Source: Thiomonas intermedia (GTDB lineage Bacteria; Pseudomonadota; Gammaproteobacteria; Burkholderiales; Burkholderiaceae_C). From it: a stretch of DNA of 57,411 bases. The stretch is from assembly GCA_022730375.1 (NCBI GenBank), contig DZDA01000003.1:2197-59607 (forward strand), written 5' to 3'. Under the pieces are notes generated by a model. It saw only the letters and a list, made by a program, of their open reading frames with translations. It did not search any database and was not told the origin of the DNA. A program made the translations under genes and the position numbers. Below, one piece after another: positions 3,677 to 49,124 of the stretch; within the stretch, counting starts at the first letter, position 1, and each line of letters begins with the position of its first letter.

Positions 3677-3798
3677 CTACGTTGCATTTTGGAGCGTGTC
3701 TGACATTCGCAGGTCTGGCGGCCTTGATGCAAATCAAACGCCATGTTGCGCTGCCGCAATCCAATGCTTTGCATTCTGCATGGAATCTGGAGAATGGA

Positions 3799-41813: not shown

Positions 41814-42287
41814 TTACTTGGCCGCGTGCTTTTTGTGCAGCGAGGCCTTGTACAGCGCGACCACTTCCTTGAACTGCTCGGCGTTCAGCAGAGCGCGCAT
41901 CCTGTCCACGCAGCCCGCGCGCATGGCCACCAGTGCAGCTTCCTGCTTGCCGATGTCTTCGATCAGGGCTTGGCGCTCGGGGGTGTCGCCCATGCCATCC
42001 AACAGCGCAGCTCGCAGTTGCAGGCGGGTGTTGGCCAGCTTGTCTTCAGCGGCCATGCGTTTGGCGGGAGCGGTCTTGAGCCATTGGGCAAACTGCTCTT
42101 GCTGGGCGGCATCGAGCTTGAGCGCTTTTTCGTGCTGTTTGATGATGGGAACCAGTGCGATGATCGGCTCGCCCAGGTTGTAGGCGGGGTGTTCGGCTTG
42201 GGCGAACTGCATCGGGGCAGCGAAGCCGAGTACCAGCGCGGTGATCAGGGCGCTGCGTTTGAAGTGTTGTTGGGTGGAAGTCAGCAT
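41814..42287 (-). CDS. Exported Spy/CpxP-like (LTxxQ) protein
   Basis: This 157-aa protein has a Sec signal peptide ending AQA/E at about residue 30, followed by an all-helical, Lys/Gln/Ala-rich mature part. The pattern LDAAQQEQFAQWLKT resembles the LTxxQ motif of Spy, CpxP and ZraP, periplasmic chaperones or metal-stress proteins. A second such segment is LLNAEQFKEVVALYK. The ATG at 42287 has GGAGA five bases upstream. It is divergent from the oxidase operon, across a 494-bp regulatory gap. Family assignment is by pattern only. Confidence 0.65.
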   Translation of the reverse strand: MLTSTQQHFKRSALITALVLGFAAPMQFAQAEHPAYNLGEPIIALVPIIKQHEKALKLDAAQQEQFAQWLKTAPAKRMAAEDKLANTRLQLRAALLDGMGDTPERQALIEDIGKQEAALVAMRAGCVDRMRALLNAEQFKEVVALYKASLHKKHAAK

Positions 42288-42498: not shown

Positions 42499-42674
42499 AC
42501 GCCTGTTCTGTGCAGCCGCCGCTACGGCACGCAACCCGCCTAGGCTTCGTCCTGCTTGCATCGGGATGGTGCGGCGCTGAAGCCTGAACTTCGATGTGGT
42601 GAACCGTCGCGTGCGGAGTAGCGGCGGGCGCCCAGCGGGGTCATTCAGGGTTTTCCCAGCGGCGTTTTGTCATC

Positions 42675-42703
42675 TTGTTCCCTGACCTATATCAGCGAAT
42701 ACT
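42675..42703 (+). promoter_or_regulatory. Weak sigma-70 promoter candidate for the oxidase operon
   Basis: TTGTTC (42675-42680) and AATACT (42698-42703) are separated by 17 bp, about 79 bp upstream of the ATG. Each matches the consensus only partly. The region overlaps one arm of the CTATATC/GATATAG repeat. Confidence 0.25.
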
Positions 42704-42781
42704 GATGCACGGATATAGACCGGACGGGCAGCGGCAACAAGGCCGTGATCCACCGTCGACACATTGCTTGAAGGAGTTTGT

Positions 42782-44263
42782 ATGTCAGAGTTGCTCGGCA
42801 TTTACCCCTCGTGGTACGTGCCTCAGATCGGCACAGCCTGGGTGATGGGGATCATCGGCACGATACACGTGCTGGCCTCCAATACCTCGGTCGGCGCCGC
42901 CGTGCTGTTTGCCATGCTGGAGAGTCGGTCGGTTCGCGAGAACAAGCCGGAGATCATGCAGTACATCAAGAAGTACGGCATGTTCCTACTGGTGTTTTCG
43001 TATATCTGGGGCTCGGTCACCGGCCCTGGCATCTGGTATTCGGTCACTGTGGCCAGCCCGCGTGGCATCTCGGCGCTGATCCACAACTTCGTCTGGGTCT
43101 GGGCGACGGAGTGGATTTTCTTCACCGTGGAGGTGATCGGGGTGTACGCGCTGGTGTACACCATCGGCAAGATCGACCCCAAGACCCACCTGAAAATCAC
43201 CTGGACTTTCGTGGTGAGCTCCATCGCCACGCTGGTGCTGATCGTGGGCATTCTGTCGTTCATGATGTGGCCGGGCAATGACCGCTGGTATCTCTCCGGC
43301 TCGGTGTTCGATGCGTTCTACAACCTGAACTTTGCGGCCCAGTTGTTCGACCGGGGCTTCCTGATGCTGACTTCGGCAGCCGTGGTGGGCACCATCATCG
43401 TGGCGGCCATTCCCAAAGGCGATCCGCTGCGGCGCGACGTGGGGCAGACGGTGGCCAAGCTCGGCATCATCGGTCTGGTGGGCGGCGCGCTGTCGTTCAT
43501 GTGGTACGTCGCCACGCTGCCGCCGAACGCGCTGGTCATCCTCAAGGATCGCCTGCCGCACTGGTTCGGCTACATCGATTTTCGCGTCACGACTTTCGTG
43601 CCCTTGGCCATCACGTCCTTGTTGATCGGCGCCTATTTGCTCTGGGTGTATGTGAAGCCCAACGCCGTGCGGGTGCCCCTGGCTGCTGCCATGGTGGTCG
43701 TGCTGCTGGTCGCTGGCATCTGGCCTGAAGAGCGCACGCGTGAAAGCCTGCGCAAGCCTTGGGTCGTGGGGCAGTACATGTACTCCAACCAGATCATCGG
43801 CCGGGATGTTCCGGGTCTGGGCATCAAGGATGAAGTGCCCATCATCGCCAAAGAGGGGCTGCTGAAGACAGCGGCCTTCGTGCCGGCCGATCTGCGCGTG
43901 ATCACGCCGCAAAACCAGATGGAAGCCGGGCGGCTGCTGGCGGTGATGTCGTGCGCCAACTGTCACTCGATCAACAAAGACGGGCCGCTGCGCCCGTTGC
44001 CCAAGCTGCTGCACGGCACGACGGACGTGGCCATGATCCAGGGCTTCCTGGCCGGGCCGCTGGCCCATGGCACAGTGCCTTACATGCCCAAGATCGATCT
44101 GCCCGATGACGAACAAAAGGCTCTCGCCACCTTCCTGGCCGCCGTCAATGCCGGCACGGTGGACGCCGAGGGTCATCTGATCGCTCGTGCGCCCGTTGCG
44201 GCGCCGCTGCGCACCGCCGTGGCGCAAGCCGCTGATCAGCAACCCACCAAAGCAAAGGACTGA
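42782..44263 (+). CDS. Cytochrome bd-superfamily subunit I homologue with fused C-terminal cytochrome c
   Basis: This 493-aa membrane protein resembles CydA but ends in a heme c domain. About nine membrane helices are visible up to residue 320. Candidate heme ligand His29 sits in TIHVLASNTSVG, matching the CydA helix-1 pattern; the VTGPGIWYSV and TEWIFFTVEV segments place Glu110 and Glu117 near the CydA E99/E107 positions. LRKPWVVGQ parallels GRQPW of CydA. No quinol-binding Q-loop (GLKDF-type) is present. The heme c site is CANCH (Cys391, Cys394, His395) with Met435 in PYMPK as possible sixth ligand. The ATG at 42782 has AAGGAG five bases upstream. It is first of three genes; I infer a cytochrome c-linked oxygen reductase. 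Confidence 0.75.
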   Translation: MSELLGIYPSWYVPQIGTAWVMGIIGTIHVLASNTSVGAAVLFAMLESRSVRENKPEIMQYIKKYGMFLLVFSYIWGSVTGPGIWYSVTVASPRGISALIHNFVWVWATEWIFFTVEVIGVYALVYTIGKIDPKTHLKITWTFVVSSIATLVLIVGILSFMMWPGNDRWYLSGSVFDAFYNLNFAAQLFDRGFLMLTSAAVVGTIIVAAIPKGDPLRRDVGQTVAKLGIIGLVGGALSFMWYVATLPPNALVILKDRLPHWFGYIDFRVTTFVPLAITSLLIGAYLLWVYVKPNAVRVPLAAAMVVVLLVAGIWPEERTRESLRKPWVVGQYMYSNQIIGRDVPGLGIKDEVPIIAKEGLLKTAAFVPADLRVITPQNQMEAGRLLAVMSCANCHSINKDGPLRPLPKLLHGTTDVAMIQGFLAGPLAHGTVPYMPKIDLPDDEQKALATFLAAVNAGTVDAEGHLIARAPVAAPLRTAVAQAADQQPTKAKD

Positions 44264-44267
44264 CATC

Positions 44268-45512
44268 ATGGATAACGCTTCCGTTTCCGCCATGCTGCAC
44301 GCCTTGCAGGACCCGGCTGGTCTGCCCGCGCCTGCTTGGATTTTCCAGTATCTCAACGTACTGACGTGGTCGTTCCACATCGCTTTTGTCAACCTGGCGC
44401 TGGGCTCGGGCCTGCTGGCCATCATCGCCTTCATGCGCCGCCATCAACCCGCATGGGCACGGCTGTCGGTGGCGATGACCGGGGTGGCCAAGGTGGCCGT
44501 GTCGATGGCCATCGTGCTGGGCGTGGCGCCTTTGCTGTTTACCCAGACGATCTACGACCCGTCCTGGTACACCAGCAACGTGCTGTCGGCGTTCTGGGTG
44601 ATCTTTTTCATCTTCAGTCTGGGTATTGGCTACACCCTTTGGTTCGTGTTCTATTTCAAGAACCACGACGTTTCGCACATTGCCCAAGCGCCCGACACGA
44701 CCGTATGGTGGGCGACTGCGGCCTTATCGATTCTGGTGTTCGACGGCTTCATCATGCATGTGCTGTCGTATCAGGGGCTGTTTCCGCAGAAGTGGATGCA
44801 GTGGTACGCGCCGCACGGCGTGCCGGTGATGAACGGCATGGGCATTCATGCCTTCGATCTGTGGCGCTTCGGCTTTTTCATGGTCATGTCGCTGACCATG
44901 ACCGGTGTTTTTTTGCTGGGCTATGCGCGTTACTTCCGCGCTCGCGAAGACGTTCCGGTCGACTATCTCGATCTGGCGCACCGCATCGGCGTGAAGACCA
45001 CGTACTGGGGCGTGGCGCTGCAACTCCTCACTGGCGTGTTCTGGGCGCTGGGACTGCCGTCGTATATGCAGGTATTCACCCAGCCGCTGTTCTGGCTGAC
45101 CCTGGTGCTGATTGTGGGGGTGGCGTTGTATGCCCGCCAGGCGCCGGTGCGCGGCTCGGCGCTGCAGGCGTACTCGGCCATGGCGTTCTACGCTTTGATG
45201 GCGCTGATCATCTCGGTCGACCGCGAGGCGCTGCGGGTGGCTTATCTGGCGCCGTTCCACTACGACCTGAATTCCAAACCGCACTACGAGTGGGGCGCGG
45301 TGATCTGGTTCTTCGCGACCTTCATCTTTGTTGGCGGCTCGCTGGTCACGTTTTATTCCACCATGCTGTGGAAGGCGGGCAAGGTCAAGGGGCTCTACAC
45401 CGCCGATGGCACGGTCTCTCGCCTGGGCGATACCGCGGTGTGGATCAACTTCACCTGGCTTATCGTGTTCTTCGCCATTGGCGTGTGGGCCTATGTGCGC
45501 AACATCCTTTGA
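44268..45512 (+). CDS. Second cytochrome bd-superfamily membrane subunit (CydA-like paralogue, no CydB)
   Basis: This 414-aa protein has about nine to ten membrane helices and starts 4 bp after the first subunit. Helix 1 holds His37 in WSFHIAFVNLALGSG, again like CydA helix 1, so both subunits appear to be paralogues of CydA rather than a CydA-CydB pair. The segment matching the CydA glutamate helix (SAFWVIFFIFSLGIGYTLW) lacks both Glu residues. This subunit may therefore be structural or bind only one heme. No CxxCH motif is present. A ribosome-binding site AAAGGA precedes the ATG. The family assignment rests on pattern comparison from memory. Confidence 0.68.
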   Translation: MDNASVSAMLHALQDPAGLPAPAWIFQYLNVLTWSFHIAFVNLALGSGLLAIIAFMRRHQPAWARLSVAMTGVAKVAVSMAIVLGVAPLLFTQTIYDPSWYTSNVLSAFWVIFFIFSLGIGYTLWFVFYFKNHDVSHIAQAPDTTVWWATAALSILVFDGFIMHVLSYQGLFPQKWMQWYAPHGVPVMNGMGIHAFDLWRFGFFMVMSLTMTGVFLLGYARYFRAREDVPVDYLDLAHRIGVKTTYWGVALQLLTGVFWALGLPSYMQVFTQPLFWLTLVLIVGVALYARQAPVRGSALQAYSAMAFYALMALIISVDREALRVAYLAPFHYDLNSKPHYEWGAVIWFFATFIFVGGSLVTFYSTMLWKAGKVKGLYTADGTVSRLGDTAVWINFTWLIVFFAIGVWAYVRNIL

Positions 45513-45542
45513 TGCGCGCCCCTGAATCTGGAACTCTCAATC

Positions 45543-45863
45543 ATGACTCTTTTGAAATCTCTCTCTCTGACCGTCGCGGGCGTCTTGTTCACCGTCGGCA
45601 TGGCCCAGGCTGCACCGTCGGCCGCGATCAGCGCCAAATTCGGCGTGTGCTTTGCCTGCCACGGCGTTGATGGCCATGCCATCCTGCCGACCTATCCCAA
45701 TCTGGCGGGGCAGAACAAAGACTATCTGGTGCAGACCCTCAGGGAATTCCGCGACGGCAAGCGTCCCAATGACGTCATGGGGCCGATGGCCAAGCCCTTG
45801 AGCAACAACGATATCGACGAAGTGGCGATGTACTTCGCCGACATCAAACCGGGGAAGAAGTAA
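45543..45863 (+). CDS. Periplasmic c-type cytochrome (class I, c553-like)
   Basis: This 106-aa protein has a signal peptide cut near AQA/A at residue 23 and one heme site, CFACHG. DVMGPMAKPLSNNDIDEVAMYFAD supplies the likely Met ligand and the C-terminal helix of single-heme cytochrome c. It is the third gene of the oxidase cluster, 30 bp after the second membrane subunit. Its likely role is to deliver electrons to the fused heme c domain of the first subunit or to be a complex member. Its last 20 bp overlap the convergent outer-membrane factor gene. Confidence 0.88.
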   Translation: MTLLKSLSLTVAGVLFTVGMAQAAPSAAISAKFGVCFACHGVDGHAILPTYPNLAGQNKDYLVQTLREFRDGKRPNDVMGPMAKPLSNNDIDEVAMYFADIKPGKK

Positions 45864-47412
45864 GCCCTGCAGACGATGCGGCAGGCGTAGGCGCATGGGT
45901 CTGCGTCTGCTCCTGCGTCTGTGGCTGCAGCCCGCCGCCCAGCGCTTGATAGAGCAGGGCGGTGTCGTTCAGGCGCGCAGCCTGAGCAACGATCAGGCCG
46001 ATGCGGCTCTGTTGCAGCTGTTGCTGCGCGGTGAGCAGTTGCAGCGCACTGGCAGTACCCAGCGCGTATTGCTGCTCCACCAGTTGCAGCGAAGTTCGCG
46101 CCGAGGCTTCGGCTGCGCTCTGTGCCTGCAAGGCCTGGGCGTCGTGTTCAAGCGAGCGCAGCACATCAGCCACCTGCCGCAAGCCTTGCAGCACGGTTTC
46201 GCGGTAGTTGGCGGCTGCGGCATCAAAGCCGGCCTCGGCGGCGCGCGCCTCGGCCTTCAGCCCGGGTTTGAACAACGGCTGGGCCAGCTGCCCGGCCACT
46301 CCCCAGATCAATGAACCACTGCCGAACAGACTGGCCGCGGTCAGCGCCTGGCTGCCCATGTTCGCACTCAGGGTGAGCTGCGGGTACTGTTTGGACACCG
46401 TCACGCCGATCTGCGCGCTGGCGGCGTGCAGCAAGGCCTCGGCGGCGAGGATGTCGGGCCGTTGACGCACCAGATCAGACGGCAGACTCAGCGGCAAGTC
46501 GGCGGGCAGGGTGAGGTCGGCCAGGGTGAAGTGCGGATTTTTCGCCGAGCCGGGCGCCTGACCGCTGAGCACGGCCAGCAGATGGGCCGCCTGGTCGGCG
46601 CCGTTGCGCAGCGGGGCGATGCTGGCGCGGGTTTGTTCCATCTGGGTTTGCAGCGTGGCGATGTCCGAGGCTGTGGCCACGCCCAGACGTTCGCGCGCGC
46701 GAGTGATGTGAAGCTGCTCCTGCTGCGCCGCCAGAATTTGGTTCAGTGCGTCGATCTGTGCGGCCAGTAGCGCCTGCTTCACGGCCGTGGCGACCACGGC
46801 TCCAGCGAGACTGAGTTGAGCGGAATCGAGCTGGTAACGCCGCCATTCGGTCTGCGCCGCCAACGATTCGAGGGCGCGACGGTTGCCGCCGGAAAGATCA
46901 AAGGCGTAGCTCACGCCAATCCCTGCGTTGTACAAGTCATAGCGCCGCTCGCCGCCGGGCAGCCCCATGGCCGCGCTGTTGTTCTGCAAGGTTTGCGCGC
47001 CGAGCGTGGCGCTGACCTGGGGATAGAGTGTGGAGCCGCTTTGCGCGGCATAGGTTTCGCGGGACTGCCGCAGCGTGGCCTGCGCTGCGGCGAGAGTAGG
47101 GCTGTGCTGCAGGGACTGCACGACCAGTGCGTCGAGCTTGGGCGAACGGAATTGCGCCCACCAGTTTGTGGCCACAGACGGCGCGCTGTTGAAGCGTTGT
47201 GGAGTGCCGAATGCGCCCGGAGATGAGGCGGTCTGCGCCGGAAGCGGCGCTGCGGTATAGGCCGCCACAGATAATGCGGCGGGACGCTTGAAATCAGGCC
47301 CAGCGGCGCAGCCGACGAGCCCTAAAGCCAGGGCAAGGATAGAGAGTCTCCGGGCATGACCTGATCCCACGGCATGGACGAAGGGATCATGCGTTGTTTT
47401 AGCGTGGGCCAT
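45844..47412 (-). CDS. Outer-membrane efflux lipoprotein (NodT/TolC family)
   Basis: This 522-aa outer-membrane channel serves tripartite exporters. The lipoprotein signal ends in LGLVGCAAGPDF, so Cys is the acylation site. Two OEP repeats follow with long Ala/Gln-rich helices (QTQMEQTRASIAPLRNGADQ, EQQYALGTASALQLLTAQQQ) and the NodT motif DLVRQRPDILAAEALLHAA. The ATG at 47412 has AGGAG seven bases upstream and overlaps the cytochrome c' gene by 14 bp. It is the last gene of the run that starts with the TetR regulator and HlyD-type adaptor, so it may complete that exporter although several genes lie between. Confidence 0.88.
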   Translation of the reverse strand: MAHAKTTHDPFVHAVGSGHARRLSILALALGLVGCAAGPDFKRPAALSVAAYTAAPLPAQTASSPGAFGTPQRFNSAPSVATNWWAQFRSPKLDALVVQSLQHSPTLAAAQATLRQSRETYAAQSGSTLYPQVSATLGAQTLQNNSAAMGLPGGERRYDLYNAGIGVSYAFDLSGGNRRALESLAAQTEWRRYQLDSAQLSLAGAVVATAVKQALLAAQIDALNQILAAQQEQLHITRARERLGVATASDIATLQTQMEQTRASIAPLRNGADQAAHLLAVLSGQAPGSAKNPHFTLADLTLPADLPLSLPSDLVRQRPDILAAEALLHAASAQIGVTVSKQYPQLTLSANMGSQALTAASLFGSGSLIWGVAGQLAQPLFKPGLKAEARAAEAGFDAAAANYRETVLQGLRQVADVLRSLEHDAQALQAQSAAEASARTSLQLVEQQYALGTASALQLLTAQQQLQQSRIGLIVAQAARLNDTALLYQALGGGLQPQTQEQTQTHAPTPAASSAGLTSSPV

Positions 47413-47857
47413 AAAAGTGCTCCTGGAATGATTTGCGAAAGGTCTGATGGCAAGCCAGACAGCTTTGCTGCACCTGGGCAAATTCGGTGATGACCGCTGG
47501 ACCGTCGCCCCGCGTTGCGGCCTCGCCCATGGCTGCGGCCGCTTCATGAACCTGTTCGTCGAAGCCTCGGAACCTTCCGGCATCCTTGCCGAGCCAGGCC
47601 ATGATGCGCACTCTTTCCGCCACCGGTGGCTCGGGGTGATGGGCGATGATGGGCGCGAGGCGTGCCACCAGGGGCCAGTCTTCTCGGGAAATCGCTCCCG
47701 TGACGGCTTGCATGTCGCGCCCGAGCTTTTCCATCACGTTCTGTAAAGACATAGGTTTCGCAGGCTCGGCGGCTTGCGCATGAAAAGCGGCGCCGGAGGC
47801 GAGCACGGCCGCGGCCAAAGTGATGGCACGGACTGGGAAGCGTTTGGGGTTGTTCAT
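47399..47857 (-). CDS. Cytochrome c' (class II c-type cytochrome)
   Basis: This 152-aa exported protein has a signal peptide cut near AQA/A at residue 30 and a four-helix mature domain. The heme site CLACH lies close to the C-terminus, as in cytochrome c' (QQSCLACHQTFRKSFQEHF). Cytochromes c' bind NO and CO and in several bacteria protect against nitrosative stress. The start has AAGGA seven bases upstream. It sits between the LpxR-like gene (58 bp upstream) and the outer-membrane factor gene, which starts inside its 3' end. Confidence 0.88.
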   Translation of the reverse strand: MNNPKRFPVRAITLAAAVLASGAAFHAQAAEPAKPMSLQNVMEKLGRDMQAVTGAISREDWPLVARLAPIIAHHPEPPVAERVRIMAWLGKDAGRFRGFDEQVHEAAAAMGEAATRGDGPAVITEFAQVQQSCLACHQTFRKSFQEHFYGPR

Positions 47858-47915: not shown

Positions 47916-49124
47916 TCAAAACTCCATGCTCAGCGCGACCGAGCCGAAGGCATGGCGACCGGCCTGTTCCTCGAACTCGCGCGTGCGCCAGACGCGCATC
48001 AGCGCCAGCCGGATACCGCGCCCGGCGAGCAGCCATTGGCTGCTGATGCCGACCGCTGCCTGGGCGACCCAGGGACGGCGCGTCACGCTGTGGCTGGATC
48101 GAAGGAGATTGCCGTCAAGGGAAAAGTCATAGGCAACTGCCTTGGCCTCCACCATGCCGAAGAAATGCATGCCAGGACGCGGGCGGCGGGCGACCGCCAT
48201 GACGCTGTTGGGCTCGCCATGAAGGGAGGCGGCCGATGGCGGGCGGTTCTCGGCGCCGGAGCGGATGGGATAGCTGCCGAAATCGTTCGGCAAGTTCCAG
48301 CCGATACGGCCTTCGACGCCCAATGTGGCCGAGGTTTCGATATTGCCCAGGCGCAAACCCATGGAGCGAATGACATCAGCGGAAAGGCCGGGAATGATGG
48401 CGCCCGTGCCGCGATAAGTCCTGTACTTGCGATCCATGGCGAGCTGAAACGCCGGCTCGTTTCTCAACTGGTTGTCCCAGCCCTGGAACCTGGGTGCGCC
48501 GATCGCGTCATGGACCAGGTTCTGCGATTGTTCCGCCAGCGACCACGGGCCGATCACGCCGAGTGTGATTTCGCGCGTGTCGAGCATTTCGCGACTCGAC
48601 TTGGGTTCGTGTTTGCGCTGGTTCCACGCCAGGCCCAGGTAGAGCAATCCCGCGTAGGGTCGATCTTTGGCGATCAAGTCCGTCCGGGCGGAGTCCTCCG
48701 GCGTGAACATGGACTGGCCGAATCTGACCACCACGTTGTGTGTCTGTGCAGAACCATCCGCATCGGCCCAAAATGCGGGGTTCATGAAGCGGATGAGCTG
48801 CGCCTGCAGCCGGATCGGCGTCGGCAGGCACTCGGGCCGTAGTCGGCCGGGAATGTCGTGCGAAACCAGGGTGAATGCCACGCCATTCGTGTAGTTCTGG
48901 TCGGTGCCGACAAACAGATCGTTTTCCAGCCTGACCGTGCCGCCACGAAGTCTGAATTTCTGTTCGGCGGTGCATTCTCCGCCATCAGCAGCGCCTTCAT
49001 TGACGGCTTGCGCCAGGGTCGGCGCGGGGAGGGGAACACTTGTCGCCAGCGCCAGTGCGATTCGTTCCAGACGATGTCGGGCGGGCGGGCGCGCGCAGGG
49101 CGGACGGGGCGTGCACTTGCTCAT
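47916..49124 (-). CDS. lpxR: LpxR-family lipid A deacylase (DUF2219)
   Basis: LpxR-type outer-membrane barrels remove the 3'-acyloxyacyl chain from lipid A. The 402-aa product has an N-terminal signal region and the conserved RLENDLFVGTDQNYTNG with the catalytic Asn-Asp pair. DRPYAGLLYLGLAWNQ and LGVIGPWSLAEQSQNLVHDAIG follow, the His probably catalytic, then GWDNQLRNEPAFQ. The last residues, SVALSMEF, end in Phe like other barrel proteins. GGAGG lies seven bases before the ATG, which overlaps the LOG gene stop by 4 bp. The substrate is inferred from family only. Confidence 0.83.
   Translation of the reverse strand: MSKCTPRPPCARPPARHRLERIALALATSVPLPAPTLAQAVNEGAADGGECTAEQKFRLRGGTVRLENDLFVGTDQNYTNGVAFTLVSHDIPGRLRPECLPTPIRLQAQLIRFMNPAFWADADGSAQTHNVVVRFGQSMFTPEDSARTDLIAKDRPYAGLLYLGLAWNQRKHEPKSSREMLDTREITLGVIGPWSLAEQSQNLVHDAIGAPRFQGWDNQLRNEPAFQLAMDRKYRTYRGTGAIIPGLSADVIRSMGLRLGNIETSATLGVEGRIGWNLPNDFGSYPIRSGAENRPPSAASLHGEPNSVMAVARRPRPGMHFFGMVEAKAVAYDFSLDGNLLRSSHSVTRRPWVAQAAVGISSQWLLAGRGIRLALMRVWRTREFEEQAGRHAFGSVALSMEF

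Follow-up and report, generated by a model that had tools for sequence, protein, structure and literature searches.

The question raised by this locus is whether three adjacent genes encode a respiratory enzyme of the cytochrome bd superfamily that is fed by cytochrome c instead of quinol. The window, i.e. the whole analysed stretch of 57,411 nucleotides of Thiomonas intermedia DNA, lies on contig C18 of draft genome G000, which is 83% complete. A preliminary description had named three plus-strand open reading frames, and all three were recovered at the same positions (Table 1). From the sequences we regard it as rather probable that this cassette encodes a copper-free O2 reductase of the bd superfamily which is supplied by cytochrome c and in which the b558 heme and the quinol loop are gone.

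Table 1. Features of the cassette and its surroundings (positions within the window).
Feature	Position	Strand	Description
Divergent small protein, candidate member only	41817..42287	-	weak Metal_resist match (PF13801, Spy/CpxP-like), 19.9 vs. cut-off 29.2 bits
FNR-type box TTGACATAGATCAA	42485..42498	+	intergenic, upstream of cassette; TTGAY-N4-RTCAA
Conserved block, predicted promoter region of cassette	42640..42725	+	long runs kept in 10/10 aligned Thiomonas-type loci
P0001 (subunit A)	42782..44263	+	CydA-like membrane protein, 8 hydrophobic membrane segments (hydropathy scan), C-terminal cytochrome c domain
P0001 CXXCH heme c attachment motif	43952..43966	+	residues 391-395; from sequence, invariant in 21/21 rows
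P0002 (subunit B)	44268..45512	+	second predicted CydA-fold membrane protein, ~10 helices, without acidic active-site residues
P0003, small c-type cytochrome	45543..45863	+	signal-peptide-like start, one CXXCH; Cytochrom_C (PF00034) 29.6 vs. cut-off 21.3 bits (Pfam); downstream in relatives
Cytochrome c′ gene	47402..47857	-	PF01322, 31.8 bits
LpxR-like outer-membrane protein	47919..49124	-	PF09982, 292 bits
Second exact FNR-type site	3724..3737		palindromic

By its sequence, P0001 is a member of the cytochrome bd superfamily, since it scored above the Pfam cut-off for PF01654 (Cyt_bd_oxida_I; 32 vs. 26.2 bits, residues 20-232) and its active-site residues are conserved. Also, canonical CydA matched the P0001 family in a profile comparison (96.3%, E 2e-9); of 20 subunit-A relatives, PF01654 detects no more than 8 at E ≤ 0.001. 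His29, Glu110, Arg191, Glu317, Arg320, Glu321, Arg324, Lys325, and Pro326 are invariant in 21/21 aligned rows, and Glu117 is present in 20 of the 21, with Asp in Thermus. We take His29, Glu110/Glu117, and Glu321 to correspond to His19, Glu99/Glu107, and Glu445 of CydA (E. coli numbering). For comparison with canonical CydA, 19 sequences were recovered from 28 loci tried, with both motifs found in 16. Glu321 is located three residues ahead of an R-x-P motif, as is the glutamate before GRQPW in 19/19 canonical CydAs. The b558-ligating histidine of CydA, presumably His186 in E. coli numbering, aligns with residue 190 of P0001, a non-conserved position adjoining the invariant Arg191; the alignment gave no counterpart for the Met393 position. 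From residue 190 to R-x-P there are 134 residues in P0001 vs. 196-267 in the 16 canonical CydAs, making the span that bears the Q-loop at least 62 residues shorter; the quinol loop therefore appears to be gone, as the preliminary description had proposed. An AlphaFold model of P0001 was poor (pTM 0.39) and its best match, a CydA chain with Z 9.8, was given no weight because unrelated proteins score 7-9.

The C-terminal part of P0001 gave two cytochrome c matches under the Pfam cut-offs (residues 379-453; 17.7 vs. 21.3 and 14.7 vs. 27 bits). Together with Met435, the motif C391-x-x-C394-H395 is invariant in 21/21 aligned relatives, so the earlier view of P0001 as a CydA-like protein with a C-terminal CxxCH holds. 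The fused domain would follow helix 8, at the position of the last helix of CydA. With eight segments in subunit A and the known orientation of CydA, it would be located outside the cell membrane.

For P0002, which had been called a second CydA-like protein, the profile search with PF01654 and the structural comparison gave different answers. While P0001 exceeded the PF01654 cut-off, P0002 matched no Pfam family at E ≤ 1, and a bd-related NCBIfam match was found in none of 20 P0002 relatives. Its predicted model (pTM 0.63, pLDDT 58) best matches E. coli CydA-type chains (VIA Z 23.2, rmsd 3.8-3.9 over 288-297 residues). The P0002 family matched the membrane part of the P0001 family with 97.0% (E 1e-10), compared to 0.7% (E 0.09) for a column-reversed control. 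Compared directly with canonical CydA, the P0002 profile gave a weak match (7.6%, E 0.005), the reversed control giving E 0.26. Because these direct Pfam, NCBIfam, and profile links are absent or weak, the kinship of P0002 with CydA rests on its fold and on its relation to subunit A. On these sequence and model data both proteins are placed inside the bd superfamily, P0001 by Pfam and profile, P0002 through its fold and its kinship with P0001. In subunit B, His37, Arg200, Arg319, and Arg323 are invariant in 22/22 rows, and no Glu or Asp was found among the columns conserved in at least 90% of these rows. Since subunit B thus has no conserved acidic residue, subunit A is probably the catalytic one.

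Subunit B varies among the relatives. At three loci it ends in a fused cytochrome c domain of its own (L048 7364-9184, L050 2117-3457, and L051 173-1543, each on the minus strand). Also, subunit B of the distant relatives L049, L050, L051, and L052 has a histidine three residues past an invariant arginine, which occurs in none of the window's group and may serve as a heme ligand.

P0003 scored above the cytochrome c cut-off and has an N-terminus that, judged by eye, resembles a signal peptide, in agreement with the single-heme cytochrome c described before. The same gene order P0001-P0002-P0003 is found in Thiomonas-type and in more distant loci; Thiomonas are the closest named relatives of the cassette. 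As had been noted, no cydB is present directly 3′ of the cassette, where a minus-strand gene for an outer-membrane efflux protein comes next. In the whole genome, the sole match to PF02322 is on contig C38, adjoining canonical cydA, and canonical cydAB and cbb3 (ccoNOP) are also encoded elsewhere. Further downstream, the cytochrome c′ gene is located about 1.5 kb past the cassette on the opposite strand, and a gene for an LpxR-like outer-membrane protein was also found (Table 1).

Combining these features, a soluble cytochrome c, either P0003 or a different one, would deliver electrons to the fused heme c of subunit A, and from there they would reach two active-site hemes in subunit A (His29, Glu110/Glu117, Glu321), where O2 would be reduced. 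Subunit B would act as a CydA-derived partner substituting for CydB. The enzyme would have lost the quinol loop and the b558 heme that CydAB has, and it would require no copper. The electrons are likely to come from cytochrome c.

With bd homology, no Q-loop, and a fused heme c, the locus fits published non-quinol bd families, as the preliminary description had supposed. One of these is the OR-C family, which Murali, Gennis, and Hemp reportedly described in 2021 as a family of the superfamily without the quinol site. OR-C is defined by a CydA homologue that bears a fused heme c motif, and CXXCH was found in 21/21 subunit-A rows. The cassette shares with OR-C the CydA-related catalytic subunit, the absent quinol site, and the fused heme c domain, and by sequence it may simply be an OR-C member. 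Archaeal CydAA′ likewise consists of two CydA paralogues, but uses quinol and is not known to contain heme c. With canonical CydAB the cassette has in common the active-site His and Glu residues and the fold of the membrane part, whereas CydAB has CydB, the Q-loop, and the b558 histidine but no heme c, and the cassette is the reverse in each respect. The OR-C and OR-N families are treated in several papers (PMC10839748, PMC13189123, PMC11707229, PMC12342949, PMC10579370, PMC8509429), and OR-N is described there as putatively cytochrome c-oxidising. The OR-N enzyme CydAA′ of Nitrospinota and Nitrospirales resembles the cassette in its two CydA-like subunits and a putative, unproven cytochrome c oxidation; by its description, it is set apart by other lineages and settings (nitrite oxidisers). 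According to a 2021 review, no bd enzyme that takes its electrons from a source other than quinol had yet been obtained or characterised. Families of the superfamily that lack the quinol site are already in the literature, to which the contexts of the relatives, with metal genes or the gene for flavocytochrome c sulfide dehydrogenase (FCSD), may add.

At the family level, 4 of 150 genomes have relatives of P0002, and at the class level 10 of 369 (both counts including G000); they were also found in 42 of 62 genomes of the order of G340 and in 2 of 48 genomes of another class. Plasmid records contained 3 among 72,556, where the annotation reads "hypothetical protein" or "cytochrome c". In a survey of 398 genomes of the phylum with P0001, seven genomes matched, of which G530, G820, G764, and G797 were dropped because their match was in the cytochrome c part only. 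The order of G340 consists of sulfur oxidisers and is presumably the order of Thiomicrorhabdus.

In this order, an FCSD flavoprotein domain is located 1.5-2.0 kb from 43 of 50 subunit-B genes (44 of 51 rows) compared to 0.73 expected by chance; these 43 cases are not independent because the order's genomes (7 genera) are related. The count included 133 PF09242 rows and omitted the five weakest (G902, G929:C188, G913:2187005, G935:C5:90002, and G910:C13:60475), none of which is near a cassette and whose inclusion changes the expectation to about 0.76. Seven rows are without FCSD: two are contig-end fragments, and the five complete ones (L112-L116) stand nearer to the window's cassette than any others outside Thiomonas, at about 57% for subunit A and 46% for subunit B. 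In broader surveys, FCSD adjoins 9 of 16 cassettes, together with c-type cytochrome genes, and no FCSD was found nearby in the other seven, of which two are on short contigs (L051 3.8 kb, L050 10.9 kb). Two scanned flavoproteins scored 124 and 128 bits for FCSD_central (cut-off 27), their diheme-type partners have two cytochrome c stretches each, and all five inspected flavoproteins start with a twin-arginine motif. On contig C3 of G910 (L117, 3592-14507), the FCSD-linked cassette occurs twice in tandem with identical subunit match scores. No FCSD was found beside the window's cassette, whose group as a whole is without this linkage; the two FCSD matches of its genome are on contigs C80 and C64.

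In a tree of the subunit-A membrane part, for which long branches call for caution, notably Thermus L028 and L048, the 12 FCSD-linked rows were set apart from the rest by a branch with support 87 (bootstrap) and 96 (SH-aLRT), or 100/98 with L047 added. The window's group, comprising Thiomonas, the Thiomicrorhabdus-type exceptions, and Methylosinus, was joined more weakly (88/72).

Of the indirect evidence on the donor, the linkage to FCSD, an enzyme that passes its electrons on to cytochrome c, weighs most; it was obtained in the related group and not at the window's locus. In that related group, a chain from sulfide via flavocytochrome c, cytochrome c, and the bd enzyme to O2 would probably operate. 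In line with this linkage, a published comparison reports FCC and a bd-type oxidase in Hydrogenovibrio thermophilus S5 and neither in H. crunogenus XCL-2, unlinked by the authors (PMC5733100). Among titles and abstract openings searched, which did not cover Murali 2021 and Sousa 2018, no paper linked FCSD to a cytochrome c-fed bd oxidase, and we make no claim that the linkage is unpublished.

The main alternative is that the enzyme is still a quinol oxidase using another quinol site, with heme c as an extra branch. Oxidation of quinol by archaeal CydAA′ counts in its favour. So does the 2021 review, according to which all bd enzymes characterised until then were quinol oxidases. However, P0001 lacks the Q-loop span and the conserved b558 histidine, and its relatives are strongly linked to an enzyme that reduces cytochrome c, which makes this alternative unlikely and leaves cytochrome c as the preferred donor.

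Members of the window's group adjoin genes for metals and redox regulation; the metal-uptake neighbours are few and come partly from near relatives (L012, L113). L012 and L113 have ZigA (688 and 691 bits vs. NCBIfam cut-off 600), ZrgA, and a Fur-family gene closest to Zur, which in L012, the sole one scanned in NCBIfam, was under the cut-off. L114 has ZigA (682 bits) together with a TonB receptor, for which the top-scoring name, copper receptor, was under the cut-off. Next to L115, L116, and Methylosinus L027, a histidine kinase and a Fis-type response regulator were found that are nearest to RegB/RegA, under the cut-offs; L027 also adjoins methanobactin genes and feoB. Outside this group, a RegB/RegA-like pair is present in the distant Agrobacterium L052, too, and ZnuA and CobW-type genes are found at Thermus L028.

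These neighbours bear on the substrate. The preliminary description had mentioned NO reduction, and it could be imagined that NO, or peroxide, is reduced instead of O2 with electrons from cytochrome c. The cytochrome c′ family is tied to NO binding, and the window has such a gene (Table 1). Furthermore, bd oxidases interact with NO and peroxide according to a review. The neighbours identified so far among the relatives, a part of all, are nevertheless related to sulfide, metals, and redox regulation, and none of them speaks for NO; we consider this reading quite improbable and prefer O2. Least probable of all, hardly to be expected, is that the complex is mainly a redox sensor reporting electron flow to a RegB/RegA-type regulator, as such genes adjoin four relatives (L027, L052, L115, L116) but their matches are under curated cut-offs, most other cassettes examined are without such a regulator, and subunit A has retained its active-site residues.

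Upstream of the cassette, the FNR-type box is kept in 10/10 aligned Thiomonas-type loci; in the window it is 283 bases from the P0001 start codon, and it could serve the divergent gene instead. Exact FNR-type sites number nine distinct ones in the 2.53-Mb genome, one of them upstream of ccoNOP. The conserved block closer to P0001 is the probable cassette promoter region. Upstream of other relatives, no convincing Zur-, Fur-, or FNR-like sites were found, and no Zur-like site was found upstream of the metal-uptake-linked cassettes.

Because the genome keeps cbb3 and canonical CydAB, a role under special conditions is likelier than a main one for the window's enzyme, and in its group the enzyme would probably serve when oxygen or metals are scarce. 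Only tentatively, and with more doubt than confidence, we propose that the roles are split: in one group the enzyme would be the dedicated, sulfide-tolerant O2 outlet of periplasmic FCSD, forming a sulfide oxidase chain within one operon, while in the window's group it would stand in for copper-dependent cytochrome c oxidases under a shortage of copper, other metals, or oxygen. If the reading as a cytochrome c-fed bd enzyme is right, the oxidation of cytochrome c would not be exclusive to copper enzymes, and annotations such as "hypothetical protein" or "cytochrome c" would conceal a respiratory branch. For testing a non-quinol bd enzyme, the FCSD-linked operons offer a donor chain that occurs in nature, in sulfur oxidisers that are available in culture.
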